Source: Ectocarpus siliculosus
Lineage: Eukaryota; Sar; Phaeophyceae; Ectocarpales; Ectocarpaceae
Direction: 5' to 3'
Length of the DNA: 26,440 nt
NCBI GenBank assembly: GCA_000310025.1
Contig: FN647790.1
Location: forward strand, 101,344-127,783
Below the pieces are notes generated by a model, which was given only the letters and a program-made list of their open reading frames with translations, had not been told where the DNA came from and made no database searches. Below, piece after piece: positions 4,816 through 24,300 of the stretch. Numbering within the stretch: the stretch's first letter is position 1; every line of letters starts with the position of its first letter. A program made the translations under genes and the position numbers.

Positions 4816-5202
4816 CTACCTTCCACAAACCCATCAACACTCAATTTCCATACCACAACAACAATAACACTTTGTGATATCGCGTAGTGAAATCACGCAA
4901 CCACCAACACAGTCCCCACCCATTCAAAAATTAACACGAACCGGTACCAGGTTGGTCATCGATCCTGTATTTTCTACCCGGCGCGTTGGGTCGGCTCGAT
5001 GCCAACCCCTCGTACGCGCACGGTACAACATAACTCCTTCCATGCCACACCGTTGTTACTGTTCTTCGTGCGGCTCTGACTGCTGTGCGCACACACTTGT
5101 TTCACTTGACCGACCTTCGCCTCCCTTTACTCTTCGTGAACACCCCAGTGCTCGGCTTCGCATTGCCCCCCGCCGGGTCCCGACCTCCGCGCCCACGCTC
5201 AC

Positions 5203-5617
5203 CACCAAAGATAGCGGTATCGGTAAGATTATTACTTCCTCCGTTTTCGGCAACGAGGCAAATTGCAGAATTCACGCCCGTGGTGGAAGCAGCGGGAGAA
5301 TTAGCGCTTGCCGCTAGCCTCGACACCGCCGCCGCGAAATTGGAGATAGCCTTCCGGCGCACGAACAGCAGCAGCTCCTTCAGGATCTGGGCGTCCCGCT
5401 CCTGCGAGGTGGAATACACCTTCCGCCGCCGATCTAGGCCGAGCTTCGACGCGTGGCTCCCCCCCCACCCCCCCTCGTGGCCGGCAGGCGACGATGCAGA
5501 GAAACGGCGAAAGGGGGACAGGCTTCGTCGCCGAACGGGGACCGGAGCGCCGGTAACGGTGGTCTCGGAGTAGATTATTGTCACCGACGTGCCCTCGCAG
5601 GTAACCTCGTCAATATC
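5203..5617 (-). CDS. PH-like gene, exon e
   Basis: Starts after acceptor TTCATTCTGCTGCAG in phase 0, matching exon d. It codes DIDEVTCEGTSVTIIYSE, a basic Ser-rich insert, then SKLGLDRRRKVYSTSQERDA and ILKELLLFVRRKAISNF. It has a GTGAGC donor at 5202. If unspliced the frame stops at 5102. Confidence 0.6.
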
Positions 5618-6046
5618 CTGCAGCAGAATGAACAGATTTGAGGTATAAATGCGTCAACACTGTCGTTGTTTGGTCTTGTTGGGTGTTGGTGTTATGGTGT
5701 TGAAGAGAGCGGCGAGACACCCATCCCGACAAAGGGCACAAGGAGAGAGTCGAACAGGCTTCGTGCTTAGAAGGGCAGCATCTATTCTCGCGAACCGACC
5801 GCGCCTACTAGTTGCTTCATCTTCAGTCACCTTGGCCAGCATGCTCCCCGGTTTGCGTCGCAGGCCGGTCGATATCCAGTTCAGCCGCATCTGGTCCGGG
5901 TCATACGACAAGATCCGTTCCTGCCGTTTTTTGCGCAACGTTGGATCAAGGGTTTTGGTGGGCTTCACTCATCAGTCGGGAGCCGTGCTCTTGTAAAGGA
6001 ACACATATTCGCGGCGGTGTAGCTTTCGTTTTGAGAGAGGGAGAGG

Positions 6047-6080
<34 letters not shown>

Positions 6081-8022
6081 GTGGGAGAGAGAGTGGGAGA
6101 GAGAGAGACTACATTTACGAGAGTCAGCGGATGATGGCCTCAGTTCAATCACTCGCCCCGCTCTTCTTCCCGCTTCCGTCGGAATCAAGCTTGTCCAAGA
6201 CGAGTCCGCTCCCGTCCACCAGCGTCGAGTACAGGAACCCTTCTAACACATCGTCCGTCCAGCGACTGAGAACGTGAAAAACCGGGCATAAACGGCTGAG
6301 ACTGGCATTTTTTTCACCAATCAGCCGATTGGCGCTGTAGCTTAACGTGAAAAAGAGCAACACACATGTATGTGCACGAAAAGGCTAGATTGCTCTTATC
6401 TTGGTCCGCTTTCACGAGTAGTGCATGATGCCTTTCGATTTCGTGTGACGACGTGATGTGCTTCGTGTGAATCTATGTCGATCAACCCGTCGGTGCAACA
6501 CACCTCGAGTCTTCCAGAGCAATACAATGATGCCCTTCGCACGACTGCCAACGACATGCTCTTTGACGGTACGAGCGCTGGAAAAAGCGTCAAGAGAACC
6601 GTGCCGCAGACGGACAGTTGACGCTCCGTAAAATCTTGGTTTGAATGACACCCAAGGAGACACGGAGCTACAAATCAAGAGAAACGTACACGACCATCCT
6701 CATACTGTGAAACTAAAGCACAGAGATGCAACGCCTGAAATCTCTCCCTCTCTCTATCTCTCCCTCTCTCTACCTCTTTCTCTCTCTGTGTGTTCCACAC
6801 TTTCGTTAGCAACACATACCAAGGAGCTTACCAACTAGAGGTTCGTCCGACACATACAAACAACGAGAGGTCGCAAGTTTCGCTGCGGTCAATGAAGCAC
6901 ACTGCCAAAATGGCCTTCGTGTGTCGTCATCGAAATCGACGAATCATACTGTTGAGAGCACGATGACCACTATTATAGACCACTAGTCAGCGCTGAGTGG
7001 CATTCTAGTGGTCATCGTGCTTCTCAACACATACCACAGCGGTCAAGGCACACCTTTTCTTGGATGTTGTCCTTGGAGGCAGTCTGCTAGGCCTGGCGCG
7101 AGAAACCACTCCAGCCGGGGTGCTCCCTCCTCTTGCGGTATCGGGAAAAGGAGTCTGCGAGGGGCGGGGGCGTACTTGTGGTTCAGGGTGACACTCCTGT
7201 CGTTGTTATGCTGATGTTTTGCCGTAGGTGTTTTTGTTGTTGAGTCTTGTTCTCTGGTTGTTGGCAGTGATGGTGCTAGCAGGAAGGGGGGTAAGAGGAA
7301 TGCTCGACAAAACAAGTCCACCGCTCATGGGGGATGTGTAACGTGGGCATATGTAGGCGTTCACGCGGATGTATGCCTAATTCGCGTGCGCAGCCACGAA
7401 TGGGGGGCATCCGGGAACCATGTGCAGCATTGCTGTCTGTAGGTAACTTGTTGTTGTGGTGGAGGTGGCGTTTACGGCAAACGCGTCTGATCTACATATG
7501 CCCAGCACCTCCTCCTCCTCCTCTCTGCTGCTGCAAAGATAGCCAGGGAGCTTGATGCGCATGCTGACGATGCAGACGCACGAAAACTTTCAACGACATG
7601 TAAGCTCATATTTTTTGCACGGTGAACCCGCTCACGTTTCTCTCGGGTACGTCACCGCCAGTTGTTGCCGATGCCGGTGACGTCGTGCTGGTCACGCCCG
7701 TGCCCGGAGAGGGGATGCAACTGCTCTCCCTCTCCCTGGATGTACTATCTTCGCTCAAATCCCGTTGCATCCGAGGACCGTTTTCAGGAACATGAACCGC
7801 GATCCCCCCGTCGGTCTCCCGTCCACCCTTACCGGCATCATGTTTTGCAGAAGGGGGCTGGGATGTAGCGATAGCTCCGGCAAGCTTCTGCAAGTTAGGG
7901 CGCCGGATATCCTCACGGGTAAGGACGCTCCCGTCGTCGTCGCTGCAGCTGTCGTAGTCCCCAGGACTCGGCTCACAGCAGGCGTGCCTCAACGCCTTGC
8001 ACACGTACCGGAGACGGTACAT
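5203..8022 (-). CDS. Minus-strand gene with PH-like region (partial 5-exon model)
   Basis: Model, in transcript order: complement of 8022-7636, 6577-6504, 6265-6153, 5967-5831, 5617-5203. All internal junctions are GT/AG and the phases chain 0, 2, 1, 0. The first 129 residues are Ser/Asp-rich and probably disordered. From about residue 158 there is a pattern like a PH domain: LEGFLYS; LRKKRQERIL; DPDQMRLNWIST; then DIDEV-x-x-EGTS; then DRRRKVYSTSQERDAQILKE. The order of basic strand, Trp-containing strand, I-x-(D/E)-V-x-x-G strand and a final helix with DA-x-x-L resembles PLC-type PH domains, which bind phosphoinositides. The fold call is inference. Both ends are open: the start may lie in an earlier exon near 8513, and coding may continue below 5203 or stop at 5102 without the last splice. 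Confidence 0.5.
5831..5967 (-). CDS. PH-like gene, exon d
   Basis: 137 nt ending AAG|GTGACT in phase 0. It codes LRKKRQERILSYDPDQMRLN, then WISTGLRRKPGSMLAK. The protein-like content is strong. The acceptor (GATGAG) lacks a pyrimidine tract, so the 5' boundary is tentative, but stops lie just upstream. Confidence 0.55.
6033..6110. repeat. (AG)n / GGGAGA microsatellite
   Basis: About 75 nt of GAGA and GAGTGGGAGA repeats in the exon c to d intron of the minus-strand gene (a CT tract in the transcript sense). Confidence 0.95.
6153..6265 (-). CDS. PH-like gene, exon c
   Basis: 113 nt after acceptor CACGTTCTCAG. It codes RWTDDVLEGFLYSTLVDGSG and LVLDKLDSDGS, then a donor GA|GTGATT in phase 1. 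It looks like the first strand and variable loop of a PH-like fold. Confidence 0.5.
6504..6577 (-). CDS. PH-like gene, exon b (small, frame uncertain)
   Basis: 74 nt between a strong acceptor (GACGCTTTTTCCAG) and donor GAG|GTGTGT on the minus strand. All three frames are open. The frame chosen (phase 0 to 2) is the one linking exons a and c. Another frame (ARTVKEHVVGSRAKGIIVLL) looks more protein-like, so the splice chain may be wrong here. Confidence 0.35.
6951..7028. other. 78-nt near-perfect hairpin
   Basis: Left arm 6951-6972 (GTTGAGAGCACGATGACCAC, TA) pairs with right arm 7006-7028 (TAGTGGTCATCGTGCTTCTC, AAC) with a single one-base bulge. The 33-nt loop can pair further (CCACT with AGTGG). 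It lies in the intron between exons a and b of the minus-strand gene. The size suits a microRNA precursor; a short inverted-repeat element is the alternative. Confidence 0.85.
7636..8022 (-). CDS. PH-like gene, exon a
   Basis: 129 codons from ATG (8022-8020) to a GTGAGC donor, phase 0. It begins MYRLRYVCKALRHACCEPSP and continues with an acidic segment SCSDDDGSVLTREDIRR. The open frame extends a few codons above the ATG to possible acceptors near 8046, so this could be an internal exon instead. Confidence 0.5.
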
Positions 8023-8439
8023 GTCACCCCGCAGTTGGGGTTCTGTTTTCTGAGTGGTTGGCGTCGTCCGCTACCCGCGGCGAGTGTCGTCGGGTTTTGT
8101 TTCTTCCGGGGAACAGCAGGGTCACGCAGGCCCGCCCATCTGTTTGCTGGGCGTGAATCGCGTGTGGCGTGGAATCACGTGTGGGAATTCGTGAGAGTTC
8201 GTTATCGTGAGAAACTTAATAAAACATGCACTGCAACTCGACGCAGGTCTACCCCATGCATTATATTACCCCCGTGCACGCGAAGTGTTGAAGTCTTTAC
8301 GTAAATAGCGGCTTTTTTGTACCATGGGAGATCCCCATGTTTTGGCGTTGTGCGAGAACTCCGCTGACTTTGCGTTTCGCTGATTCTTCACTAACCTAGC
8401 TCTTCCCGATCCTCGGCAACCTCGATTCGGTTGATTCAC

Positions 8440-8792: not shown

Positions 8793-8915
8793 ATGCCGTC
8801 TGTGCACGAGATCCACGTTGAACTCGTCAGGCTCCTGAGCGCCACGGAGCGCCTCGTTGCTGCTGGAGAGCCATCAGCGAGTGGGAGCTGGGAGAACTGG
8901 CCGCGCTTCTGTCAG
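8793..8915 (+). CDS. USE1: USE1-like exon 1 (start codon, N-terminal helix)
   Basis: It encodes 41 codons from ATG (8793) to a GTCAGT donor at 8916, ending in phase 0. The peptide begins MPSVHEIHVELVRLLSATER and ends with a Trp-containing stretch ENWPRFCQ. In USE1 proteins the N-terminus is a short helix with an L-x-R-L-L pattern followed by an acidic/Trp segment leading into a second helix, which matches. An upstream in-frame ATG (8682) would add 37 residues of unlike composition. The downstream one is preferred because the family pattern begins there. Confidence 0.72.
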
Positions 8916-11900
8916 GTCAGTCGGTCACTTGCTGCTGCTGGTCTAGAAAAAATCTGTTCCCCCTCGGGTAGGCTCTTGGTCTGTCCGCGTTTTGGAACAA
9001 CGCCCTACTGCTGCTGCTGCTGCTGCTGCCGCCGCAAGGCCATGAAGCGTCACGAAACTTGATCAGGGTTGGCTGGTTGTCGATGGTTCGAGACATGTTC
9101 TTGCTGCAGTACTGCTGCGGCGGCCTCTCCGCTCTCCCGCTGGCCGTCGCGTACGGAGTATTTCGTTGGTCCCGATTTGGACTTCCGCTTTGTTGTTTGG
9201 TGGGTTGGGCAGTGGTTGTGTAGGGACCCAGCTGTGGTCGAAAGGATAGCTGAAAGAGCATGGAGTGCAGCTTACCAAGTAGGTACTGCCGATTGTAGCA
9301 AAGCAGCAGTGCCTTTGATTTGGGTTGTTTTCGTACCAAAACACGCTTCTCTCTACATACAAGTACATTTTTCCGAAAACTCTCAGCTCTACGCATACGG
9401 AGTAGTTGTATCCGAAAGACACTCCGCACGATGTACCCACGCAAACACACAAGGGCACCACCACCGATTGCTGCTTCCCGGCGAGCTTGTTGCCGTGACA
9501 CAGGCGTCGATATCGCGACCATCTCAGACCCCAGCTGAAACGGACAGAGAACTCCGCGCTCCTTCTCATTTCCTTCTAATGGAACCCCCCTTCGTCTCCG
9601 CCGCCGCCGCTTGCTGACTCCTCCACCCTTAGTTCATTACATCGCTGGACAGCACCCAGTCTCAGCTGCAAGCAAGGGTGGCAGAGGTTTCCCGTGGAGC
9701 CGGCGCCGGCTTGTCGCCAGCGCTCCCAACCGCGGAGGATCTCGCCGACTACGACCGACGCCTCGAGATTTTGCGGCGCAAGCGAGACGATCTCGCGTCT
9801 GCGGCCGCCGCCGCCGCCCTCGCTTCAGCGAAGAACTCCGCAGCAACCGATCCTTCGCAGCAGCAGCAGCAAGCGACTGGGACTGGCGGCGTTGTCGGCG
9901 GTGCTGTTTTCGTCCCCCAAGAAGATGGTGACCGCGTCGTCAGAAGGAGGGAGGCGCGAGGCTCGTCGCGCCGCCGGGGCGCCAAAGACAGCAGCCAAGA
10001 TGATTCCGGCGGGGTGTTTGGCGGGCGGCGCCCTGGCGGCGGGAAGGGGGGGGGGGGGGGGGAGCGGGCCGCGGACGAGGCTGAGGCGGACCAGGTCGCC
10101 CAGGAGATATCTAGCATGGCTGGGAGGCTGAAGGAGTCCAGCGTGGCTATCAACCAGACCCTGAGGACGCAGACCCAGGTACATTTGTGTGGACGGGCGG
10201 ACGGACCCCCAGAATAGCTGCGTCAGTTTCAGACAGGTCGCGCGAAGTTTCGAACGCACAGCACATGCCCGTCTTGTCTTACTCATTGGTGCTCGATGTG
10301 TTGAGGGAAAATCGTCTCCTGCCACACAGGTACACGTGCGATCTGGTCCACCCGAAGGAAATCCTGCATGCAATCAAAACTTTACCTCTTTCTATTTCGT
10401 CGGTTTCTCCGCCTCCTCCGATTTTGTTTGTTTTTTTGGGGAGAAAGCGTGCGGAGGTAGACTGCGTGATGTGCTGGTGGGGACGAGTCCCAACCGCTAC
10501 TCTGTGCGATAACTGTTTAAAGGGTTCTTCCTTGCGGAAATATTCCCCACTAGTGTCACGCATCTCGTGTGTGATCGCTGAGGTGCTCTTTCGGGCGTTT
10601 TCGAGATCAGTCAAGATCAAGATCGGTTGATCATCACACCCTTTTTAAGCTTGGTTTCTTCTTGCTGAGGTGCTCTTTCGGGCGTTTTCGAGATCAGTCA
10701 AGATCAAGATCGGTTGATCATCACACCCTTTTTAAGCTTGGTTTCTTCTTACGGTCCACGAAGATGCGCCCTGTACTTTAGGGGAAGGCCCACCCACGCG
10801 GCAAGGTTTGACGGTTTTGCGGCCGCATCACGTCCACATGTTCGACCCGAAAGCTTGTTCCTCAACCGAAGCAGGAATTTTGGTGGCGTGGCACACCCAG
10901 AGCGCAACAACGGTTGGGCTTAACAACACAAATAAAAATATATCGTGTGACAGATGATAACCTTAAAAGCAAAACAACCTCCTTTTTCGCAAACAGTAAC
11001 CTTAGCAATTAATAGTGACGTGCGAGACTTCTCGCCCCACACACGTTTTTGTTTTATGTGTTGTTATGAAAAGATCGCCCGTTCATGTGCCCTGCGGAAC
11101 AACCCGGCGTTTTCCTTCCTTTTTGCATTCCACAACCTTTTTCAGGTGCTTGAAGACACGGGCGATGCCGCCACCCAGAACGTAGACCGGGTGAAGAGGG
11201 AGAACGCTCGGGTGTCGGAGCGGCTGCGCAAGAAACGGGCCGCCATGTTCGCGTCATGGTGCATGATGATCACGGTGAGACTAAGGGGGATCCCTGAACG
11301 TACGAACGACTCGGGAGGAGAAGAAGGGGGGGGGGGAGGGCGGCGATATGCAGATGCAGTGGCTAACGCAGAGGTGGTTGATCTAGCCATGCTGGTGTTG
11401 CGACTGTTGTTGATGTTGCTGTTGCTGTGTTGTAACTGTTGGTGTTGTTCTTGTTGTAACTGTTGGCTTTGGCGTTGTTGTTGTTGTTGCTGCTGCTATT
11501 ATTGTTGTTGTCGTTGTCGTTGTCGTCGTCGTCATCGTCGTCTCCATCTTCAGCGTCATACCTTGTCGTGCAGCCCTCCGTGTACTGCACCCTCACAAAC
11601 CTCCACCCCGTCCCCGCCAGAGTGCCGCAGCAGACACGAAAGGGTACACTACAGTTCTGCTGCAACTCATGGCGCGAAAAGAGCGCCTGGTTCTGTGCTA
11701 GAAGGCGGATCTACACGATTAGGCAGGCGGCTTGACCTCGCCCTGGAGGTTTCATATTTTGAATAACTCCCGAGAAGAGCGGCAAGTAATCGCCTGCCAC
11801 TCCCCTGCCCGCATCCGTAGCGACCCTTTCGTCTCGTTCACGGATTGGCTATGTCAGTGATGGTGAGAGTAAAACGGGCGTCCCCTCCCCCCCGCAGGTG

Positions 11901-12241
11901 GTGGTGACCTTCTTCGCAACCTACTTCCTCGTGATCGTGCCGTTCGAGAAGAGAAGGGGGCCTTTCGTCGCCGCCCGCACCTCAGCGTTTGCTCAGGCGG
12001 CGGAGCCGAGGGAACGCATCCCCTCGGAGGTAGCTAGTTGTTGTTGTCATCGTCGTTGTTTGTCAAAGCATTTGGGCCCCCAAAGCCGTGCGCTTTCCTC
12101 GTGAGCTGCCGCGTCACGTGCTTGGCTACTGATACAGTTGTCGAGCACCACCACGACCACAGCCGTAACACCGGCCCGGCATCGATTTCTTCTTCTACAA
12201 CCAGGCGTATAGATTTTGGCAAAGACAAGGACTGGTAAACC

Positions 12242-12297
<56 letters not shown>

Positions 12298-13518
12298 GGA
12301 ATGCTGGAACACCCGGTAGGAGGCAGCAGCAGGAAAACGTTCCTCAGCCCCCAACAACGTGCCGACCGAAGCCATCAATACATCTGAACGTGATTCTCCC
12401 ATCCCCCGCTGCGAAAAAACTGTTGGCTTGTCCGTGATGGCAGCACGACGCCGCAGCAACAGCAGCGGGAGCCGCAACAGCGGAGGAGATCCAGCGCCGT
12501 GCGCAAGAGGCGTACCGTGAAACCGCGCGACGTGCCCGCGGAAGGCACGAAGGCGACAACGCTGCCCACCGCGTCGCCAGGGAGGAGAAAGAGGCGTTTC
12601 GTCACCGCCAGGCGTGAGTTTGCGTGCCCCCCAAGTGTATAGCGTTTAGTGTAGTGGCTCCTATGGTACTGGTTTTAGTATTTAGTATGTCGACTACGGC
12701 AGGTTGGCCACACCGCCTTGTCACCTGGTACAGCAGTAGTACGGTCGTGCACGGTAGGTACCACACCACACCCGATTGTACTCCACGACAAGGAGGATGC
12801 CGCAATCAAATGATTTCGGCGAGGTCTCTACAACGGTACTGATGCTGGCCTCCTTGGCTTATCCTGCTTCGGCCACTTAGTGTAGCCAGCACCCAATCGA
12901 GGCACACAGAGGCACAACGGACGGTATCTTCCATTGTTTGGTGTGGTGAAAAGAGGGGATGATTGGTGCAGTTTGTTACGACAGCAGCAGCAGCAGCAGC
13001 AGCAGCAGGTGTCGCGACAACGCGTACGAGCTGATGACGCCTCGAGACCCCGCCCCCCGGCCTCGCCGCCTGCAACACCCCTGTGTCCTTTCACCCACAT
13101 CGCAGGGAGAGGATGATGGCCGCCAATAGAGACAGAAAAGCGGCAATGAAGAAGAATTCCCAGCAGGAAACACTGGAGGCGGGGACCGACTCTGTTCCGC
13201 AACACCGTCAGGAAGAGGGAGCGGAGGAGGGGCAGGTCGTCACGCAGGCTGGGAGCTGCAGTGCTCCCCCTCCCGCTTCTGGTGAGGACAGCAGTGGCGG
13301 TGCGGTGGCTTTGGGTAGCTGCAGTGCTCCTCCTCCTCCTGATGAAGATGGAGATGCTACGGCTGCTGCCGGAAGTTGCACCGCGCCTCCTTCCGACGAA
13401 CATGCTGCTGATGCTGGTGCTGGTGCTGCTGGTGCTGCCGGAAGTTGCACAGTCCCCCCTCCTGACGAAGATTATGCTGGTACTGCCGGAGGTTGCACAG
13501 CTTCCCCTCCAGGCGAAC

Positions 13519-13566
<48 letters not shown>

Positions 13567-16500
13567 ACACTTCGGATAAAACTGTGCCCGCGGTCGAAGA
13601 GGCAGAGGCCTCTCCCGCACAGCCCGTGCTTGACCCGGCGGTAAGTGTGGTGGAAATGTTGTAGGCATTCAATTTTCTATCCGCTTTGTGTGTGCCATCC
13701 TTTTTCTTACGTTGTTTTTGCCGTTCTGCGTGTCCATGTTCCGTCGACAATCCGGAGATATCTACTACAAGTACGTTGAAACAAACGTACGGAGAAGGTG
13801 CTGAATAGAAGTCAGTATGGTTGTTGTTGTGACAATAACACTTGGCTAGCGATGAGAAAGCGCTTCTCTGCTGTCGACTAGGAACGTTGTCGGTTTCGCT
13901 TCTCTGCTGTCGACTACGAACGTTGTCGGTTTGTCGCCTGCTATCTGGCTATGACAACGCACTTGCAAACGGTGTGGTTGAGTTATCCATCACAGCGGTG
14001 TGTAATGTTTTCGTTAAAAATATGGTTGTTGTCCGTGTTGATTTTGGCAAGCCCTACAAATGCTTGGCTCCAAGAGCAATCATTTTTTCGTTCCCGGAAC
14101 TGTGAAAGGTCATCGACTCTGCAAATGTTTTGCAGACGGCAAACGTCCGATTATTCGGAACATGTTGTTTGGCTGCCGAGCATCGAACACACTTTCCCAC
14201 CCAGGCGTCTGGCCGTATCGTGCTCGCTCGCTTTGCACTGGTGCTTTTCCACCCGCCTCCCTCCCCGTACAACATTTTTGAGCCACCGTTGGTAAAGTAG
14301 GAAGGAACCATTGGCCCTCGGTGATCGGTCCTGCGAGAACAATGCTCTCGAGGGCGCGTGGTCCATGGTCTGACAACAAGGGCATGCAAAACATGAGTAC
14401 CCCCCCGCACTCCGCGTAACCCCCCCACCAGGAGGAGCACCGACGAAGGGCGAATCAGGCGTACGAGGAACGGTCTAGGCGCGAGACCGAGAACCTGAAG
14501 AGCACAAACGCCGGGCTCCGTCTTGTGGCGGAGGAAAAGGAGAAGCACCAGCAACAACAAGCGTGCGTGCTGACCCCCCCCCCCCCCCTCCCCCCTGTTT
14601 TTTCGTCTAGGAAAACATCAAAACCCACGGAGTCTTACTATCGCCCTTGGATCAAGGTCCAGCTCTGATGAGCAAGTGTGTAGCCGGAATTGCCTACCTA
14701 TTGTGTGTATGTGTGTTGATGTCGCCTATTCTGGATACCAGCCTTCACCTTCGGTACATGTTGGATGCACAAGCGCTGGATTTTTTGTTTTGTTTTTGCC
14801 GCGGTCGGTGCTTGCAACCAATTTTTTAACGTCGGAAAAGTTCCTTCCCTCTTTGTGGCGCTTACCCTCGAGGTAGATTGCGAGATTCGAACCCACAACC
14901 CAGAGACACTCACACAGACAGAGAGAGACAGAGAGACAGAGACAAAGACAGAGAAGACAGAGACAGAGACAGGCAGACAGAAAGGCTGACAGGCAGAGAC
15001 TGAGAGACAGATAGTCTGACGGTTTCAAGATCACAAAACTGAACCACAGGGTCGACTACCCTGGAAGTAGTTTTTCTTGCGATACGTATGCATACCCTTG
15101 CGTTAGGTGTTTTGACCTCCGTTTTTCTCCCCCCACTATCATCGGCGTGCTCTACTCTCGCGGACCAACAACCTCCAGCGAGAAAATGCTGCAGGCAGCG
15201 AGCGAACGCAAAGCCATGGCGGCCGCGGGAAAGGTCAGGGAGGAGGCGCAAGTACGGCAGCGGGACGAGGAGGAGGCGGAGGCGGAGGCGGCCTTACAGG
15301 CTAGGGCTCCCGGTTCAGCCGGAGGCGAAACCGCCACGGATGTTAACACCGCCACGGATGACAACACCGCCACGGATGATAACACCCCCACGGATGACAA
15401 CACCGCCACGGATGATAACACCCCCACGGATGATGACAACGATGAGCGGAGTGGAGGTGGACAAGTCGACCGTGCCGGGGGTCCTGCCGCTGAGGTGGCC
15501 GAAGAAGCGGACAAAGGAGGCGATGATGCCGCGGCTCTACCAGATTCTTCTGTGGACTCTCAAGAGGTCGGAATTTTAATTTTTTGTATTTTTTTGCTTC
15601 GCGACTTGGCAGTATTTATTCATAAAAGTCGCCTTCGGGGGTGTGTCCGAATTGGTGCAGACAGGGTCGTCTTTCTTCTTCGTATTTTTCTCGAAACCAC
15701 CTCGACGACGTTGATATTTTGTTTTGTCGCCGCACGCGGCCTTTGTATCCTTCTTTCTTCTGCGGTAGGGAAATTTCGTTTGTTCTTTCATCACGATTTC
15801 GCTCTCGATCGGAACGGAAGTTGGTGCCAAAATCACAACGACACACTTGATGCTGTCCGGGTTTTGTAGGGATGGGAGGTCAATGTTTTAAAGGATTAGG
15901 CCATCCACCCTTAGGAGTCCCCCCCCCCCCGGGGGGGGGGGGGGGCGTACTCTTATGTTTTGCATTCCTTAGCGGTTAGACCATTGCGGGGGGGGGCGCT
16001 GATTGTACCGCGTGTTCCCGTGTTCGATTCTTTTTTTTGCCCGCTATTTCGGAGGACTGACTTATGATTGGTCAGCAGGTTAACGCGGTCGATGCGAGAT
16101 AAAGAGACGCTACGCTAAGTCATTCTCTGCCAGGGAGGAACACCGCAGCTAGCCGAGTCCTAACGAAACAGACGCAAGCGATGAATACAACGGCAAACTG
16201 CTTCTCCTCCGCTTTTTGTGTCCACGTCTCACCTTTGTTTTCGTTCGTCCTGCCCGTAAAATCATCAGGCCGGGCGTCGAAGGGCGGAAGAGGCGAGGTT
16301 GGCGTACGAACAAAACGCACGCCGCGCGGCGGACAGCTTGGCCAGCCAGAACGCCGGGCAGCGGCTGGTCTCTGAGGAGAAGGAAAAGTACCGGCAACGC
16401 CAAGCGTGAGTTTTTTTTTTTTTGCGAACATATTTATGTGGATGCTGTGCTCTCGTTCGTAACATTGGGCTGGCTCGGGGATTCGGTTTCACCCCTGCCT

Positions 16501-18184
16501 TTGATTGGTTGGTTGTGAGGCAGGCTAGCAGTCAACCTGCCGAACGTTATCTCGTAAGCTCCAACCCTGCCCAACTACTACAGCACGCGCCACCCACCAC
16601 TTCGGAACGTTGGAGTTAACGACTTTAGCTCGAAACGAGCTATTTCGAAGTCAGAGCTTGACCATCAGAACAGCTGCTTAGTTGAGAACCCCTACAGCTA
16701 ACACCTATTATTCATCAGTGTGAGGTGCCCCCATAGAGAAAGACTAAGAAACAAGCCTCTGAGTTAAAACAAAGTAAAACAAAGAAGGGTTTCGAAGAGA
16801 TTGGTGACGCCCTTTGTGTTGGGAAGGTTGACGACGATCGGATTTCCAGCATGCCTTGGCCGCAGACCTGCAGCGAAACGAACGACCCCTGTCATGTGAA
16901 ACGTGCGGGGCTGCGCGGCAATATCGCGATGTGATCGAGGTCTTGGCTCTAGCCGAGCGTGATGTTTTTGTACTCTCGCCGAGAAAGGATTAATCTCAAG
17001 TGTTGGTCGCCTCAAGTTCAACTTGCCGCATCGTAGGGCTAGCGTATTGTAGGCTAGATCGTGGCCACCCAATGCCAAGAAAGAATCGAGAAGACGTGCA
17101 AGAATTTTTTGCGCAAAACACGCATGGGGCTCCCGACTGTTGGTACCGCTTGTGTCAGGAGAAGGAGCGGTGATGTCTCTCGAAAAAGTGATGGGTGGCA
17201 AGAGGCCAAATACATTAAAGACAAGCAACCACGCGCCCCCCGTTGTGTTTGCCATCGGGGTTGGGTTTTCGTCGCTTGGCAGCGACGTTGTAAAACAAGC
17301 CGATCACTTCGTGAGCTCGACAACCAGGTTACTGCTATTTTTTGCCTCTGTTTGTTTTTGCGGTAACCATGATGGTGGTCGAGTAGATTGTGTTGTGCGG
17401 GGTCGAGAACCCTCACTCCGCGCAAACGGGATGATCGCACCACGTTGTGTTAAATTGGTCAAGCACCCTCGAGGCAGTTACACAGTGCTTACAACCAACT
17501 GTCTCTGGAAGTGAAAACACCAGACAATAAACTTAGTCATACGCAGCTGCCATCCGTAAGGAAGTAAGTACAAGATGCCGAACACCCTTAGCAGGATGCA
17601 GCGCACCCTTCATGCGACTCGCCGAATACTTCACGGTGCTTTGCGCTTGGTGATGTGAGAGCCTGGTCCGGTGAGAACCCGGCGTGGTCCGTCCCGGCTT
17701 TGTAGGGATGCGAGGTCAATGGTCTAACGACTGCGGCATGCACGACTATGAGTACCCCCCCCCCCTCGTGTGTTTCTCCTCCCCCCGCTAACCCACCCCC
17801 TCTACTTGTTTCTGTCGCTCCAGAAAAAAAATCATGGAAGGTGCGGCGAGGAGGAAGCAGCAGCGCCACCAGCAAGGCGGCGAAACTAGCGATCAGCTAG
17901 AGCTAGAGGGTGACGGTTCACCGCCCGACTCAGAGACCGGCAGAGAGAACGCCGACGGGACGATTGGAAACCCCGCTGAGGAACCCTCTTCGGGAGTTGG
18001 GGGCGACGGTGGTGGTGGTGGTGCTACTCCTGCGGTTGGGAGCAGCGGGCGTGGGAGTAGCCAGGGATCAGGCGGTCTCGATGCCGTTCGCATGCGGCTG
18101 CGCGAGAGCTTAGGAAGCAAACGAGGGGGAGGGGGGGGGGAGACGTCAACGAACGGTCACGGAAGCCGAAGAGACGAGCTTTGA
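8793..18184 (+). CDS. USE1: USE1-like ER SNARE with long exon-cassette luminal tail ending in RDEL (10-exon model)
   Basis: Model: join 8793-8915, 9633-10178, 11146-11274, 11898-12029, 12444-12613, 13106-13640, 14432-14562, 15179-15566, 16269-16405, 17824-18184; 883 codons. USE1 is the ER-resident SNARE of the retrograde Golgi-to-ER fusion complex (with syntaxin-18, Sec20 and Sec22 type partners) and is C-terminally membrane anchored. Seen here: an N-terminal helical region (ELVRLLSATERL, then LADYDRRLEILRRKRDDL), a SNARE heptad region at residues about 196-245, a basic stop (RLRKKR) and a hydrophobic anchor at about 257-282. Known family proteins end almost at once after the anchor; this one continues about 600 residues through three repeated exon pairs to a terminal RDEL. 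Every junction is GT/AG and phase-compatible. Identification as USE1 rests on recognised sequence pattern, not a search. The link from exon 4 to the tail is inferred from phase and topology, so a separate downstream gene is the main alternative. Confidence 0.78.
8916..9632 (+). other. USE1-like intron 1
   Basis: 717-nt phase-0 intron, GTCAGT donor and CCACCCTTAG acceptor. It contains a CTG/CTGC tract at 9009-9030. Splicing it out joins RFCQ directly to FITSLDSTQSQL, restoring the helix expected in this family. Long open frames inside it on both strands have no recognisable protein content. Confidence 0.65.
9633..10178 (+). CDS. USE1: USE1-like exon 2 (linker and first half of SNARE motif)
   Basis: 182 codons, phase 0 at both ends. 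It starts FITSLDSTQSQLQARVAEVS, continues with LPTAEDLADYDRRLEILRRK, then a low-complexity linker (A7, Q5, G runs), and ends in ISSMAGRLKESSVAINQTLR plus TQTQ, the N-terminal half of the SNARE heptads. A 17-G homopolymer (10046-10062) lies inside the coding sequence. The frame is right on both sides of it, since recognisable family sequence flanks the run, which argues that the G count as given is correct. Donor is AG|GTACAT. Confidence 0.85.
10179..11145 (+). other. USE1-like intron 2, carrying an exact tandem duplication
   Basis: 967-nt phase-0 intron with a clear polypyrimidine tract (CCACAACCTTTTTCAG). It holds the perfect 87-bp duplication at 10577-10750. It splits the SNARE motif next to the central layer. 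Confidence 0.8.
10577..10750 (+). repeat. Exact 87-bp tandem duplication (2 copies)
   Basis: Copy 1 is 10577-10663 and copy 2 is 10664-10750. I see no mismatch between them. Each copy starts GCTGAGGTGCTCTTTCGGGC and ends GGTTTCTTCTT. Absence of divergence implies a very recent event or an assembly artefact. Confidence 0.95.
11146..11274 (+). CDS. USE1: USE1-like exon 3 (second half of SNARE motif and start of anchor)
   Basis: 43 codons, phase 0 at both ends. It reads VLEDTGDAATQNVDRVKREN, then ARVSERLRKKRAAMF and ASWCMMIT. It supplies the + layers of the SNARE helix, the juxtamembrane basic cluster RLRKKR and the first residues of the membrane anchor. The pattern A-x-Q-N-V/L-x-x-V/L-K-x-E-x-x-R just before the anchor is the most diagnostic USE1-type segment in the window. 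Donor GTGAGA. Confidence 0.9.
11898..12029 (+). CDS. USE1: USE1-like exon 4 (membrane anchor and first luminal residues)
   Basis: 44 codons, phase 0 at both ends, after a CCCCCCCGCAG acceptor. VVVTFFATYFLVIVPFEK completes a hydrophobic segment with exon 3, giving about 25 residues (257-282). It continues with RRGPFVAARTSAFAQAA and an acidic/Pro end. By USE1 topology everything after the anchor is luminal. Donor is GAG|GTAGCT. If not spliced, the frame reads 24 more codons to TGA at 12102-12104, which would give a conventional short-tailed SNARE of 334 residues. Confidence 0.85.
12245..12293. repeat. (TC)n microsatellite
   Basis: An uninterrupted TC tract of about 24 units in the exon 4 to A1 intron. 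Confidence 0.95.
12444..12613 (+). CDS. Tail cassette exon A1
   Basis: Starts in phase 0 and ends in phase 2 with donor GC|GTGAGT. It encodes an Ala-rich lead HDAAATAAGAATA followed by a charged helix EEIQRRAQEAYRETARRARG and the end motif AREEKEAFRHRQA. It is homologous to A2 and A3 (shared R-R-A-x-x-A-Y, R-R, then EEKE-x-x(2)-Q-x-Q-A). It is the most diverged of the three, with a 13-residue extra N-terminus. The acceptor TGATGGCAG has only a modest pyrimidine tract, but it is the only nearby AG giving the needed phase. Predicted luminal coiled-coil type helix; no family recognised. Confidence 0.7.
12982..13008. repeat. (CAG)9 microsatellite, intronic
   Basis: Nine CAG units in the A1-B1 intron. 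Although it reads as polyglutamine, no exon boundary supports translation. Confidence 0.9.
13106..13640 (+). CDS. Tail cassette exon B1 (helix plus Cys-Pro repeats and polyalanine)
   Basis: Starts with one base completing the Ala codon left by A1 and ends in phase 0 (GCG|GTAAGT). The conserved B-type opening is ERMMAANRDRKAAMKK. It is followed by five imperfect repeats of G-(S/G)-C-(S/T)-x-(P/S)-P with acidic D/E spacers (GSCSAPPP, GSCSAPPPP, GSCTAPPS, GSCTVPPP, GGCTASPP), each with one cysteine, then 15 alanines encoded purely by GCT (13521-13565). Five regularly spaced cysteines in a predicted ER-luminal region could form disulfides. No known domain recognised. Frame is fixed by the upstream exon. 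Confidence 0.75.
13521..13565 (+). repeat. (GCT)15 coding microsatellite (polyalanine)
   Basis: Fifteen uninterrupted GCT units in the B1 reading frame. The purity suggests a length-variable site. Confidence 0.95.
13861..13932 (+). repeat. 36-bp tandem duplication in intron
   Basis: Copies 13861-13896 and 13897-13932 differ at one base (AGG versus ACG). It lies in the B1-A2 intron (13641-14431). Confidence 0.9.
14341..14410 (+). repeat. Intronic repeat family, copy i
   Basis: The segment around GTGGTCCATGGTCTGACAAC, GGCATGCA and ATGAGTACCCCCC resembles 17671-17760 (GGTCAATGGTCTAACGAC, GGCATGCACGAC, ATGAGTACCCCCC) and more weakly 15864-15930. It sits about 20 nt before the A2 acceptor, so its C-run may serve as pyrimidine tract. 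Confidence 0.55.
14432..14562 (+). CDS. Tail cassette exon A2
   Basis: Phase 0 to phase 2 (donor GC|GTGCGT). It encodes EEHRRRANQAYEERSRRETE, then NLKSTNAGLRLV and AEEKEKHQQQQA. It aligns with A3 over its full length (RRRA, AYE, RR, NAG-x-RLV, EEKEK, QQA) and with A1 in the second half. Acceptor CCCCCCCACCAG is strong. Predicted charged helix on the luminal side. Confidence 0.8.
14876..15056 (-). repeat. tRNA-like element with microsatellite between its Pol III boxes
   Basis: On the minus strand, TGGTTCAGTTT (plus 15036-15046) resembles an A box. GGTTCGAATCT (plus 14883-14893, within a TGGGTTCGAATCTCGC context) is a near-consensus B box. Between them, about 120 nt consist of TCTG/TCTC repeats. 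This looks like a tRNA or tRNA-derived SINE head expanded by a microsatellite. It is not a functional tRNA because no cloverleaf spacing remains. It lies in the A2-B2 intron. Confidence 0.5.
15179..15566 (+). CDS. Tail cassette exon B2 (helix plus acidic minisatellite)
   Basis: One base completes the A2 Ala codon; the end is phase 0 (GAG|GTCGGA). The B-type opening EKMLQAASERKAMAAAGK matches B1 and B3 in layout. It continues as a Glu/Ala helix (EEEAEAEAALQA), then six copies of an 18-bp unit coding T-(A/P)-T-D-D-N (15333-15440), and an acidic end. Strongly acidic overall; low-affinity calcium binding, common in ER-luminal acidic regions, is a possibility but only inferred. Confidence 0.75.
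15333..15440 (+). repeat. 18-bp coding minisatellite, 6 copies
   Basis: Units of the form (G/C)CCACGGATGAYAACACC, giving alternating A/P at one residue. The first unit has GTT for GAC/GAT and the last ends in GACAAC. The multiple-of-three length keeps the frame. Confidence 0.93.
15864..16036 (+). repeat. Intronic repeat copy ii followed by tRNA-like A/B boxes and T8
   Basis: 15864-15930 shares TTGTAGGGATG-(C/G)-GAGGTCAATG with 17700-17721. Downstream, TTAGCGGTTAGACCATTG (15969-15986) resembles a tRNA D-arm/A box. GTGTTCGATTC (16020-16030) resembles a B box and is followed by T8 (a Pol III terminator type run). Together they look like a decayed tRNA-derived SINE. Confidence 0.45.
15919..15945. 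repeat. C12G15 homopolymer palindrome
   Basis: Twelve C followed directly by fifteen G in the B2-A3 intron. It can fold as a perfect GC hairpin or form a G-quadruplex on either strand. It may also mark a sequencing or assembly join. Confidence 0.85.
16269..16405 (+). CDS. Tail cassette exon A3
   Basis: Phase 0 to phase 2 (donor GC|GTGAGT). It encodes AGRRRAEEARLAYEQNARRA, then ADSLASQNAGQRLV and SEEKEKYRQRQA. Compared with A2 it has a short insertion before AYE and otherwise aligns throughout. Acceptor AAATCATCAG follows a mixed pyrimidine tract (CGTTCGTCCTGCCC). Predicted luminal charged helix. Confidence 0.8.
16406..17823 (+). other. A3-B3 intron
   Basis: 1418-nt phase-2 intron with donor GTGAGT and acceptor TTTCTGTCGCTCCAG. 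It holds intronic repeat copy iii (about 17671-17765). I found no decayed extra A or B exon in it. Confidence 0.7.
17671..17765 (+). repeat. Intronic repeat family, copy iii
   Basis: The best preserved copy: GTCCGGTGAGAACCCGGCGT, GGCTTTGTAGGGATGCGAGG, TCAATGGTCTAACGACTGCG, then GGCATGCACGAC and a long C run. The portion GGTCAATGGTCTAACGAC resembles a tRNA D-arm. It ends about 60 nt before the B3 acceptor. Confidence 0.55.
17824..18184 (+). CDS. Tail cassette exon B3, terminal exon ending in RDEL
   Basis: One base completes the A3 Ala codon. The B-type opening is KKIMEGAARRKQQRHQQ, then an acidic Ser/Gly-rich low-complexity region, a short helix (DAVRMRLRESLG) and an end GHGSRRDEL followed by TGA at 18182-18184. 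RDEL fits the ER-retrieval pattern [KRHQSA]-[DENQ]-E-L at a C-terminus, which the KDEL receptor recognises on luminal proteins. That placement agrees with USE1 topology and supports both the frame and the joining of the tail to the SNARE. Confidence 0.82.
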
Positions 18185-21100
18185 CCTTCGCTGTGCTGAC
18201 GATCTTCCTTGCGTTCCTGCGCCGCAAGGGTAGAGACGGCGACTCTAGGCTCGAGTGTTGTCGTGTCTCTGAGCCAGGCATGGTAAGATGGTTGGGTGTG
18301 TGTCAATTTTGTTTGGATGAAAAGTACAAGTTGTGGCGTTCTTTGTCGTGCTTGACGGCCAAGTCGTTTGTGGGAGTGAGTGCTGCTATCCATCCGGAGC
18401 CTTGTGCAAGAGGGAAACGGGCGTGCTTTCGAAATTGTTGTGGAGCTTGCATTTGGTTTAGTTGAGGATTATTAATAGAAGTAGTCTACATAGTCTGGGT
18501 CTCTCCGAACCCATCACTGACGAATGCAGCACTTGGATTCTTTTTTGGGATCTTCGTTGAAAAAGGACGACCAGTCAGAAGTATAGGCCTGAGAGTTCAA
18601 ATCTCTTGTTGATTGTTGTTCGATGGAATGGGTATCAAGTTGTGCGAAGACATACACAGGTAACATACAAACAAACGTGGTACCGAGAGACGTGTGGTGT
18701 GTGTGTGTGTGTGGGAACGGCGACATTGACTAGGCTATTAAAAAAAAATAGTGAATGAACGTTGTTGTTTTGTACTTCCTTTAAAGGTCAGAGTACCAGG
18801 CAGCAAGTTTTACTTCTACTATGCGCTTTAGTAGTGAAATGCAAGCTGAAACCATACTTTTTCCCTCTGTCGCTCCTCTTGTCTCATTCGGGCGACGTCG
18901 GCGCGGTCTTCAGTTCACCAGAAAAAAATAGAAGAAGTGCAAAGTATCGTATGTATGTATGCTACACGTGTGTAGCGCACATATTATACATAGCGTGTTT
19001 TTTTCTCACATGACGAATTCATCTATATCTCGAATGGATAGTGTTTTTTTCTGCGTGTGTATTTATTTTTCTTTATATCCGGATTCTACAGAAAAGACTC
19101 CGGGATAAATATGCCGTGGCAATGAATTTCAGGACAATGGCCAACTTGGTTGATGAGCCTGTGAACGCACAGGGGAGATATCGCTGCATGCTGCTCGGGC
19201 AATCGTATGCCATAGGTATGCATCCATTATGACCATCTTGTGCATCTGCCTACCATCTATGAATATATATCTGTCTCGTTTTGTCGGCGGGTGGCGAGGG
19301 AACGACTGTGGGTACATCTCGAATGGATAGTCTTTCTGTGTGTGTTATTATATATTCCTTAATAAATACTGCTTTAGAGACAAGCGGCAAGAAAGTATGT
19401 GGTAGGGTGTTGGGCGTGTTCTGAATGTTGCATGAAAATATGACAACAAAAACAGTGGCGGCGCGTTCCACGTGTATTCTGTTGTATCCATAACTTGAAT
19501 TCTGGTATACCCCCGACCGAATGCGGATGCATCCCCCATTGTTTCTTCACGTCTTCTCTCTCTGCGTACTGCTGCACAACAACCAGACGACCAACACAAG
19601 TGCAGTACAAGGTTGGTTGCTTGCCAGAAAACAAATAAATCCATTACACCCGCCGTTTGTGGGACCTTGAAGTTGGACACCACAGCTGTCCTTGACATCA
19701 TCTTGTGTTCCTCGCATGCCAAAGGTCATCTATCTCACGGTAGAAGAAGTATACACCCACGGGGATACATGTGCTGTGAAAGAATCGTGGTGCCCGTCAG
19801 TAGTGCCGCCAGTGCTACGTGTCGACAGAACCTGTTGCAGCTGTCCTGCAGGGCAAAAGTATGTATGTACAGAATCTAATTGGTTGTATGCGCAAGAATC
19901 TAATTGGTTGTATGCGCAACAGCACCACACCACACAGAACTTGTTCTGGGTTCAGGAGGAACATATCTCTCTCGGATCTGACATGTAAGAAACACAACAA
20001 ACTGCGTAGTATATTGTCGTTGTGTCGTCAGCATCGTCTAGACTATGTATGCATAGTACCATCTCTCTTCGATATCCGCTCTCATGTCATCCACCTACTA
20101 CCATCTACGGTGGGTGACATCCCAGCGAGTGCTTGATATGAGGACGGCGAACGGAGAGAAGAAGAGTATATGTAAAACCTTGTGCGACCGGCGGAAGAAC
20201 CACCACGCAACGACATTTTTACATCATCTGTGTTTGTTTTTTGGTTTTCCATGCAGACAGGGAAACTGCGAATTAGAGGCACCCAGTTATGTTGAATAAA
20301 GAGACAGTCACCCAGAGCAGCTGATACACACACAGCGATCGGAGACTCGTCATTTCATATTCGTTGAAAAACCTCCGAGCACGGCATTGTAGTGCTGCCT
20401 GCATCATGAGCCGTCGCCTATGCACAGGTTGCAAAAAGTCCGACTCGCACGCCCTGTATCGGGTACCCATCCTGCACCACCGAGAGATATACCCCGAGTT
20501 CGAACGGTATGCATCATCTTCATCAGGACAATACAAACGATGGATATAATTATTTTCCCAACAACACCAAAATCATCTAAAAAAACACGGCAAGTAATAA
20601 AATCCTTGGATCTTTGTCGCGCACATGGTATCCCCTTTCGGCTGTTATCCGTGTGTGTGCATGCACGCGCATGTGATGACGTTGCTGTGCTGTTATACAT
20701 CCATGTCCCACGGGCCATCGCAGCACACGGGGGGTGGACACACCAGCAATTTCCTCTCGAGGTACCCTTGGGATCATGGTGGCCGGGGAAGGCGAGAACA
20801 ACGCGCGGCGGCACGATACGCCAAAACACAAAATGCGTGTCGCAAAACCTCATCTGAGCTTTCTCCTCTCGGTCCAACATGTCTACAAGCAGTGCCAGCG
20901 AGAGACGGAAATGTTTCTCCGTCGGTGGGCGAAAGAAAGTTCACTGAGGGCAGCGGTATCCACACAACGAATGTTCCCGAGAGAGAAGCGCACATATAAT
21001 ACAGAGAGAACGGAAACCTTCACTTTTGCTGCCACCTGCCCGGTTTTCCACCTCTACTTACTCTCACCTGACACACACACACACGCAGCTAGCTACTTCT

Positions 21101-21328
21101 TCTTTTGCTCCACAGACAACCACCAGGACGGGACGCAAAGGGCGGCAGGAGAACAAGCCTATACGAGACGCGCAGGAGGGAGGCACACGCCGCAGCAGTC
21201 AGTCAGCAGCGCCTGGGACGAGCGAACGAACTGCGTCAAATTCCCGTGCGCTACCACTTCTCTTCAGCAAGTCTCCGCCTCTCCTCTCTTTCCACGACAA
21301 CATCGATCGCATACGACAGACTGCAGCC
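18185..21328. other. Intergenic region, probably USE1-like 3' UTR and downstream gene 5' flank
   Basis: No exon is supported. It holds a GT tract (18697-18713), a GAGTTCAAATCTC B-box-like site near 18591-18603, a 24-bp tandem duplicate (19868-19915), a repeated motif ATCTCGAATGGATAGT (19028-19043 and 19315-19330), and AATAAA-type hexamers near 19361, 19636 and 20295. Open frames of up to 204 codons here have no protein-like pattern. Confidence 0.55.
19868..19915 (+). repeat. 24-bp tandem duplication
   Basis: AGAATCTAATTGGTTGTATG-CGCA occurs twice head to tail without visible mismatch. Confidence 0.9.
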
Positions 21329-21394
21329 ATGTCGACTTCTTTCTTTGACCAAGGACGAGGGGGCTTCGGCCACCGCTCCCAGCAGCAGCTGCCG
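21329..21394 (+). CDS. Low-complexity gene, candidate exon 1
   Basis: ATG then STSFFDQGRGGFGHRSQQQL and P, up to donor CCG|GTAAGC in phase 0. Gly/Gln composition agrees with the later exons. An alternative start lies at 21479 or 21628. Confidence 0.45.
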
Positions 21395-24300
21395 GTAAGC
21401 AACAACGGTCGCGGCATGCTCGCCCCGTCCACCGACGGTAGGTAGTAGTAGCAGCAGTCAGCTATCCTCTGCGCCACCATGGATAATAGAAGCGCGTCGT
21501 GCCTCGCTGCCTTTGTTGCGCGCAACAAGCTGGCGGTCGACATGTACGTTCTACTTTCGTATCCTGTTTGACTGAGAGAGACTTAGACGAAAAGAGCCAA
21601 TCGTGCCTCTATTTACTCGCGCACCCGATGGACAACAACCAGCAGGAGCAACCGCAAGACTTCCGCGGCATGCAGCGCGACGCCCAGCACCGGGGGGGGT
21701 CTTCTGCTCGTCACCATCATCACCTGGCGTTGCGAGGCAGCGCAGCATCGGCACCCTCATCATCGGCCCCCCTTCTCCGCCGCGAACGGTGAGTTGTTTT
21801 TTTTCCGAGATCTTCACAGACTTTGGCATTTTGCATTGTTCGGCTGCGTGGTGGTGACATGTATTCTCTTTGATGTAGACAGACGGACCCTGCACTTGAG
21901 GGATGCGTACCTCTGCTAGACGGCCCCTTTGCTCCCTCGTGTCGTGTCTTGCACGCACGCTGATAATGATGATGATGACCCGAACTGAGCGAGAGAGGCA
22001 TGGTGCGGTGCGCTATGCTATCGGCCAACCACGGCCCTTACGTGTGGAGTTTTTGACGATAATCTTAATCTTTATTTGCCGAAGAGGGCAAACGACAACA
22101 AACAACAGAACCGCCACAAGAGACGAACACAAGCCGTTTTCCGGAAAATATCCTTGTGTATGTGTGTGTGGGCGCACATAATTTTTGTTCATGTCCAAAA
22201 ACACAATGGCAGGTTCTGCACACCATCTGCGGCAGCCGCTGCCGACCTTTCTAACGACGACGATGGGGAAACATCGTCCGCCTCCGAGGACTCCACCTCG
22301 AGCTACAGATCGGCGGCGGCGGCAGCGGCAGCGGCCAGCTACAAGCGTGCGGCCGAGCCATCCGAATCGTTCTGTCTCCCACCGTCCCAGCGCCCTCGAA
22401 TAATCGAACAGCAGAAAAAATCTGCCTCTTCTCCGCCCCGCTGGCTACCGGTCTCCTCTGGAGGAAATTTCGACACCAGCGGCGCAAACCTTACAGCAGC
22501 AGCAGCAGCAGCAACCACGGCTGGGCCTCAGCAGCAGCAGCACAAGCAACGCCAGCTACCACGGCTAGCTGCGCTGGGGACGCTTCTCTCCTCCTCGCAC
22601 CATCCCTCTCCCCAGCAGCAGCAGCGCCAAAACGACGAAAACGAGCAACTGCAACAACAACAACAACAACAACGGTCGTCACGCCACCACCACCCCCCCC
22701 ACCAGCAACGACGTTCCACAACAACATCATCAGCACTGCTGTCTGCAGCTGGTGCGGCGGTTTTGGCGAAACCGATGCAACTGCCTCTTTCTCTGCCACC
22801 TCTGGCGCCCTCTGCAGCCAGGGCACCGCCAGCTACAACGACGGCACAGCGTGGGTCGTCATCCTCATCATCGTCGTCGTCGCCGTCGTGCTCCCCGCCC
22901 GGCTCGCGGTCCAACTCTCCGCCCACTTCTTCGAGTATCAACATTCACCGGCGTGATGTTCGGTACAAACTTCCTCCGCCTCAGCAATCGGCAGCGGGAA
23001 TTTCTTCTTCTTGCGCTGAACCGGTCAACCACCAGGAACAACGTTGGTTGCACAGCGGCAGCAGCAGCGGCACCGGCGAGCTCCGCCGCCACGTGCCTAG
23101 GATAGGGGCCTTGAGCAGCAGCAGCAGCAGCGACAGCAGCAGCAGCAACGGCAGCATGAGCCCGGTCTCTAGGAGGTGGGAATCGGCGGAGGTATCTTCA
23201 TCAGCAGCGCCCTCCGGCAGCGCTCCTGCTACTGGTGGTGCGGCGACTTCCTGGCCCAAGCCTGCAGGGGACCAGCAGACCACCGTTCCGTACAACTCGA
23301 ACCCGAACGTTTCGAGTTCTTCAGCCGGTCACGCCTCCTGGACGGGGCCCACACACCGCGGAGCATGGGCGCAGGAGTACAGCGGCGGCCGCGACGAATG
23401 GCAGCCTCCGCAGCGGCAGCAGCAGCAGCAAGCGAAGGTGACACATTTTTTTTTCCCCGATCGGTTGCTTCATAGCGGAGACTTTTTTTTCCACCACAGA
23501 ATGTACTTCTATAAGTAGCATACATCCGAAAACTTTCTTTCGTTCTTGCGGGGGTTGAAGGGTTCGTTCGTGTCGCCTGTGTGCATGTATTGTATGTATT
23601 GTATGCGCGAAAAATAACCCAGGGGCTCACCTCACCACCCACACACCCGATTCGCTTCTTATTTTTCGAGTCTCCGCTCTCTCTGTCTGTCTGTCTGTCT
23701 GCTGCATACATGCGCGGTTGTTGACGTTTCTCTTGTCTGGAAGTGGGAGCTATTTTTTTTGTTCATCCGAAATGGGTGTCACCTGCTTGCTTTGGGCGGT
23801 GTGTACTTGTACGCATCCACAGGAAAATCGTCATGGAATAAACCTCTGCCAGAGTATTCTCCGAGCACCAGCGTTGTATACTGCTGTATACAGCAACAGA
23901 GTCACAACTAGTACCATGTATTTATGAACTACTGCTGACTGCCCGAGACTTGATGGGGGAGTGTTTTTGTCGCGCTTCATGACACCCTCTTCGCTAGATA
24001 GCACTGCAGGGCATATCTCCCACAAGAAAATGGCTGCATACCGAACGAACGCATGCCCTGGTTGTCGAAAACGACAGGTGCCATATTCATTAGCTGAGAA
24101 TAATGTCATCGCGCATGTCAGCACAAAAATGCATTTTTTTTTTGTCTTCACTTCAAATCAGCGCCCACAGCACTATTAGTAGTGCCGTTTACTCCTTCCC
24201 GTGGTCACACAGAAGAGCCCCTCTCTACCCTCCCCTCCTGCGGTACTTTGCCTTCGATTTTTACTGCGAGAAGAGTTCAGCACTCTCTTCACTCTGTGTA

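Follow-up and report, generated by a model that had tools for sequence, protein, structure and literature searches.

SNARE proteins are usually viewed as cytosolic machines plus an anchor. Among them, Use1 is the ER Qc-SNARE of Golgi-to-ER fusion. Its SNARE motif is cytosolic, so that the part following the anchor lies in the ER lumen; a typical Use1 ends shortly beyond the anchor, and a tail anchor with little or nothing on the luminal side is a typical, non-definitive feature of this protein. Yeast Sec20 is an ER Qb-SNARE found in the same complex as Use1, and Sweet and Pelham reportedly established in 1992 that it is sorted by the HDEL system. Two papers differ on distribution, Use1 being called ancient and widely distributed in one (PMC9804665) and, contrary to this, animal- and fungus-specific in the other (PMC6143360), which also names K/HDEL retrieval as an ER-SNARE signature. 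Two other described systems are close to the locus in architecture. The brown-algal ROCO genes, according to PMC11378527, contain many 72-bp LRR units of one exon each, with positively selected sites and alternative splicing. Sed4, according to PMC11959615, resides in the ER membrane and has a disordered luminal region able to steer location in the ER. A prior description of a Use1 tail such as the one reported below was not found among the best-ranked matches when a PMC subset, from which most subscription journals are absent, was searched for SNARE tails and brown-algal exon shuffling.

The window, i.e., the whole stretch of 26,440 nucleotides of Ectocarpus siliculosus DNA that was analyzed, contains a gene model of ten exons on the forward strand (8793-18184), in which all nine introns of the predicted splicing are GT-AG. 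The spliced frame has 884 codons (883 residues and a stop), is open throughout and gives a C-terminus reading RRDEL. Exon 1 (8793-8915) provides the start methionine, which occupies the same position in the homologues P0011, P0012 and P0013, and an N-terminal helix. Exon 2 (9633-10178) encodes the remaining N-terminal domain, a low-complexity loop and the first half of the SNARE motif, exon 3 (11146-11274) the second half of the motif and the start of the membrane anchor, and exon 4 (11898-12029) the anchor, an EKRRGPF motif and what would be the beginning of the luminal side. Exon 2 ends on a conserved TQTQ, and six of the ten homologue matches (P0004-P0008, P0010) continue beyond it into unrelated sequence, as an unspliced genomic reading would. 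Intron 2 also contains two perfect tandem copies of an 87-base sequence (10577-10750), a duplication which is probably recent since its copies match at 100%.

The Use1 identity of this protein can be read from its sequence, exons 1 to 4 matching the Pfam family Use1 (PF09753) at 66.9 bits, where the cut-off is 38.3 (E 2.8e-18, from residue 8 to residue 274, exon 3 included). The membrane anchor was assigned from a reading of the sequence together with this match, and in the AlphaFold2 model of P0012 the SNARE motif runs directly into the single anchor as one continuous helix (residues 200-298). The window protein thus shares with the Use1 family the N-terminal domain, the SNARE motif and the single anchor. 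Unlike a typical Use1, it adds about 590 residues carrying three helical units and RDEL; 603 residues separate PFEKRRG, at the anchor end, from the C-terminus. The short luminal end of a tail-anchored Use1 is therefore not what was found here, and the assignment, which comes from the Pfam match, is independent of that feature. The six exons which follow exon 4, A1, B1, A2, B2, A3 and B3, are accordingly predicted to encode a C-terminal extension of a Use1 SNARE, a point absent from the original prediction. A search of solved structures gave weak matches only, the best with a SNAP-25 chain (E 0.011). A Pfam scan of both protein halves up to E 1 gave no match to the Sec20 profile (PF03908), and the tail matched no Pfam family up to the same limit. 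When the genome was searched with the protein of exons 3 and 4 for a second Use1, it gave three matches, namely the two query exons themselves and one at E 0.22; a six-frame search with the Pfam Use1 profile was uninformative, with zero matches in this genome and in 14 control genomes. A Sec20 of the same genome was sought as well, and a first search gave none. Two matches at a loose limit (E 0.34 and 0.91) were below the cut-off and their frames were unlike Sec20 by eye; they were rejected as chance level because two prokaryote controls also matched.

The A and B exons had originally been described as three tandem copies of a frame-neutral two-exon cassette, and this arrangement held in its coordinates, splice sites and phases, each A exon being phase 0 to 2 and each B exon phase 2 to 0. 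Exon A1 (12444-12613) is followed by exon B1 (13106-13640), A2 (14432-14562) by B2 (15179-15566), and A3 (16269-16405) by B3 (17824-18184), the last exon. The three A-to-B introns each interrupt an alanine codon behind its first two bases, GC, so that this shared position was very probably copied together with the cassette. The B1-A2 intron contains a near-perfect 36-base tandem duplication (13861-13932, 97% matches). The A1 open frame starts at 12438, just past an in-frame TGA and six bases upstream of the exon, and A1 codes for no methionine; A1 must therefore be spliced onto an upstream exon. Also, read-through of the exon-4 donor (11898-12104, within the frame 11790-12104) would produce a short tail with a stop inside intron 4, a possible ordinary short Use1 isoform.

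The A exons are related to each other, as had been claimed. Local alignments scored 84 (A1-A2), 89 (A1-A3) and 116 (A2-A3), and none of 2000 shuffles reached any of these scores. A profile made of five foreign units (three from Scytosiphon, two from P0012, the Discosporangium and Laminaria units being left out) matched all three when scanned against all 791 reading frames of at least 20 residues in the window, with E-values of 4.9e-14 for A1, 1.8e-19 for A2 and 1.5e-17 for A3. The best match after the A exons was the head of B3 (E 0.18), and nothing else was significant in the window. On the spliced tail, the same profile runs through all three B heads, each adding 10 to 14 bits. The claim that the helical B head has been kept was not borne out by pairwise comparison of the first 30 residues, the scores being reached by 199, 1058 and 281 of 2000 shuffles, and was upheld by a matrix of 12 residues made from seven heads of other proteins, one of them (Discosporangium) from a doubtful unit. 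With this matrix, the three B-exon starts ranked first to third of 562 tail positions, at 23.5, 22.8 and 20.7 bits, and the next position scored 5.0. Across species, a motif like NAGLRLVAEEKEKYRQRQA is followed by a head like KxMMxxAxERKA.

The same architecture was recovered in relatives. Five named proteins occur among the homologue matches, all brown-algal by name (Ectocarpus fasciculatus, Hapterophycus canaliculatus, Laminaria digitata, Scytosiphon promiscuus and Discosporangium mesarthrocarpum). No named homologue from outside the brown algae was found among the approximately 8,000 candidates scored per search, all sharing 5-letter words with the query, a design which cannot establish absence from diatoms or oomycetes. 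Identity over the SNARE-anchor core is 90-91% for Hapterophycus, Laminaria and Scytosiphon, 85% for P0012 and 69% for Discosporangium; over 178 residues of exons 1-2, the fragment from E. fasciculatus reaches 83%. The Scytosiphon protein P0011 (926 aa) presents its parts in the same order as the window protein, with 98% query coverage and 48% identity (E 1.1e-154). P0012 (616 aa) is encoded on a contig of 2,562 nt in which Use1, the anchor and two units follow each other uninterrupted up to a terminal VRDEL; the contig is probably a transcript, since the window needs ten exons across 9.4 kb. Copy number thus varies between relatives, as the original prediction had it, with three units in the window protein and in P0011 and two in P0012, counting the apparently complete proteins. 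In the partial Laminaria protein P0003, the anchor leads into an A unit (E 5.4e-11), and the sequence breaks off at the boundary of the A exon. The partial Discosporangium protein P0013 contains Use1 and one clear unit (24.7 bits, E 4.6e-9), which scored 25.8 bits with a nine-unit profile, the highest score among 1000 shuffled tails being 8.6. Two clear units had been considered for Discosporangium; the first is non-significant at 0.8 bits, leaving one clear and one doubtful.

These proteins bear on the question of whether the window holds two neighbouring genes, Use1 stopping after exon 4 and the A and B exons belonging elsewhere or being noncoding. We regard this as very improbable. It would be in line with the short product of exon-4 read-through and with the Hapterophycus model P0002, which ends shortly past exon 4. 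However, P0002 lies on a contig of 3,371 nt and its end may be a truncation, A1 cannot begin a gene given its upstream TGA and its lack of methionine, and P0011, P0012 and the partial P0003 and P0013 hold both halves in a single protein.

The copies had been read as exon-shuffled, fast-evolving modules, and our data do not support this reading. Between copies, pS is 0.74-0.82 and pN 0.29-0.38, i.e., less than half of pS; synonymous changes are saturated in two of the three copy pairs, so dN/dS is usable for its direction only, which is that of constraint. Thus, since synonymous sites are saturated or nearly so and nonsynonymous sites are not, the helical units appear old and constrained. A genome search with A2+B2 as query (189 Mb in 492 contigs, best candidates scored only) gave five matches; four lie in this gene, and the fifth (E 0.69) is no better than chance. 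Also, the best Scytosiphon match of each copy is the copy of the same rank, with identities in the A parts of 62% (A1), 65% (A2) and 69% (A3), which suggests from sequence comparison that the duplications predate the split from Scytosiphon; for A2 the margin is only 2 points, the P0012 units being 63 and 61% identical to it. In the unit tree, one of eight inner branches was well supported and joined window A3 with Scytosiphon A3 (95/99). Its pairing of window A2 with the second Discosporangium unit (82/81) is probably due to long branches.

Like the ROCO genes, this tail is built of repeated exons which could be added or skipped without a frameshift. Unlike ROCO, it has three old, constrained two-exon units; neither diversifying selection between copies nor many interchangeable units of the ROCO-LRR type were found, the genome yielding three units. 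The shuffled, fast-evolving exons originally proposed, taken as a diversity module comparable to the ROCO LRRs, are hardly credible for this gene. Such a module could draw on the frame-neutral cassettes and on the shuffled 72-bp LRR exons documented in brown algae (PMC11378527). This reading is opposed by the three old copies, which show constraint instead of diversification, by the lack of a further significant genome match among the best candidates scored, and by the same-rank matches in Scytosiphon. As judged from the sequences, the pattern fits an old duplication with constrained helices and looser linkers rather than rapid exon shuffling.

The linkers, i.e., the 3' parts of the B exons, had been described as three unrelated low-complexity sequences that replaced the original one. 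They are indeed unlike among copies, the alignment scores being reached by 1785, 676 and 1294 of 2000 shuffles. They are nevertheless constrained in part: linkers 1 and 3 are conserved with respect to Scytosiphon (0 of 1000 shuffles reached the score, in each case). Conservation of linker 2 with respect to Scytosiphon was not found (67 of 1000 shuffles), and the P0012 linkers showed no clear resemblance to those of the window (54 of 1000 shuffles for the best pair). Counted from residue 31 of the B exons, the net charge is strongly negative in linker 1 (-21) and linker 2 (-25) and hardly so in linker 3 (-3). Linkers 1 and 2 contain in-frame coding minisatellites, with a 48-nt unit in B1 and an 18-nt unit in B2. 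Linker 1 (13246-13566) contains five cysteine-containing repeats of the GSCSAPP type, most of them followed by an acidic stretch, and a poly-alanine run. B3 encodes, after its helical head, linker 3, GLDAVRMRLRESL and the terminal RDEL before the stop, and the GLDAVRMRLRESL stretch is also present in the Scytosiphon protein. The five cysteines of window linker 1 have a parallel in the Scytosiphon tail, where all six cysteines lie in the corresponding linker; the tails of P0012 and Discosporangium contain none. The lone cysteines of linker 1 would sit in an oxidising lumen.

Such linkers, of low complexity and partly turning over, together with the variable copy number among relatives, raise the question of whether the tail is a tolerated, mostly neutral extension, generated by exon-pair duplication and minisatellites and with no role of its own. 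This we consider unlikely, because A units and B heads occupy fixed exon positions and can still be identified from one species to another, and because pN is less than half of pS between copies whose pS is near saturation.

The AlphaFold2 model of P0012 predicts one long helix per unit (residues 327-441 and 481-565). In the helix regions, 16 of 21 ten-residue blocks have a mean pLDDT of at least 81, and the linker and C-terminal blocks are below 50; the model is weak overall (pLDDT 67, pTM 0.25, six sequences in the alignment). A coiled coil was also considered and rejected: over 8 of 11 units (two Discosporangium units and the Laminaria unit being left out), hydrophobic periodicity of 3.4-3.7 residues was not above that of shuffles, 1225 of 2000 of which reached the value. 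A coiled-coil oligomer is thus unsupported, since the hydrophobic periodicity of the helices is no higher than in shuffles.

Long single helices of this kind could mean that the tail is mainly a luminal scaffold or spacer that places Use1 in ER subdomains, such as tubules, RDEL being secondary or dispensable. We hold this for a serious but rather doubtful alternative. At least one clear helical unit persists as far as Discosporangium, while the Scytosiphon model is without RDEL. According to PMC11959615, yeast disordered regions imported into the lumen localised to ER tubules, and the Sed4 luminal region, when fused to Sec12 or Sec22, led to enrichment in tubules. The likeness to Sed4 is one of architecture, and unlike the disordered region of Sed4, the Use1 tail alternates predicted helices with disorder on a SNARE. 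On the other side, a scaffold has no known binding partner here and no periodicity suggesting a coiled coil, and two proteins whose linkers are unlike each other both terminate exactly in RDEL, which is unlikely by chance: from tail composition, the probability of a [KHRDN]DEL terminus is approximately 6e-5 per terminus, for a letter class that we chose ourselves.

These two termini are HGSRRDEL in the window protein and GERVRDEL in P0012, so that RDEL ends two of the three apparently complete proteins, a sample (n = 3) too small to separate common descent from independent gain. The third, Scytosiphon P0011, as annotated ends in NNK with no xDEL, and resembles the window protein up to the shared stretch near the end; its RDEL is either lost or mis-annotated, and the NNK end is the chief result against a retrieval reading. 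In the same genome, six exon matches to the KDEL receptor were above the Pfam cut-off, and a BiP-like exon scored 475 bits to solved BiP against 417 to the best non-BiP. Approximately 0.9 kb downstream of this exon, an open frame (L016:3300-3389) ends in DDEL; it is probably the last BiP exon and would carry BiP's own ER signal. When 20 HSP70 loci were scanned for an xDEL or EEVD terminus, only this one DDEL and no EEVD came out, so that such a scan evidently misses ends.

We lean toward the reading, with slightly more for it than against it, that the A and B exons encode a luminal tail of Use1, retrieved from the Golgi by the KDEL receptor through RDEL, and whose helices serve as a rod or binding surface. 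From the established topology of Use1 we infer that the approximately 590 residues are luminal. They would form three long charged helices, each made of an A exon and a B head, separated by mostly acidic disordered linkers and closed by RDEL. With a tail of this length, the anchor would exit the ribosome long before synthesis ends, and insertion would then be co-translational. A Use1 molecule leaked to the Golgi would be captured by its luminal end, through the KDEL receptor, and sent back, as yeast Sec20 would be with its HDEL. RDEL retrieval by itself accounts for four residues and leaves the preceding 590 unaccounted; the repeated helices could form a rod, or offer a binding surface, in the lumen and so help to keep the SNARE in the ER or to cluster it there, and helices and acidic linkers together may retain Use1 in subdomains of the ER or interact with luminal proteins. 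Like yeast Sec20, the window protein is an ER SNARE with a K/HDEL-type signal at its predicted luminal end. Unlike Sec20, a Qb-SNARE, it belongs to the Qc subfamily and its tail is made of repeated exon cassettes; the likeness of the two tails would thus be convergent. A broader formulation, improbable on present data, is that in brown algae a tail-anchored SNARE became a type II protein with a modular, sensor-like luminal arm, in which helical units are gained or lost as whole cassettes ahead of a KDEL-type end; the location or activity of this core fusion protein would then be tuned from the lumen, by way of the KDEL receptor or of partners there.

In the remainder of the window, eight longer open frames flank the gene on both strands (5102-8070 and 20404-26297) and gave no Pfam match up to E 0.1. 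An inverted repeat with 76-nt arms, 80% complementary and spaced by 81 nt, was observed at 3162-3394, and is perhaps a small non-autonomous DNA transposon.

If the retrieval reading is true, fusion at the ER would be under a lineage-specific control exerted from the inside of the ER, through a luminal arm built of repeats and ending in a retrieval signal. It would also constitute a parallel to yeast Sec20 on another subunit of the complex, with parts of the arm kept as far as Discosporangium.
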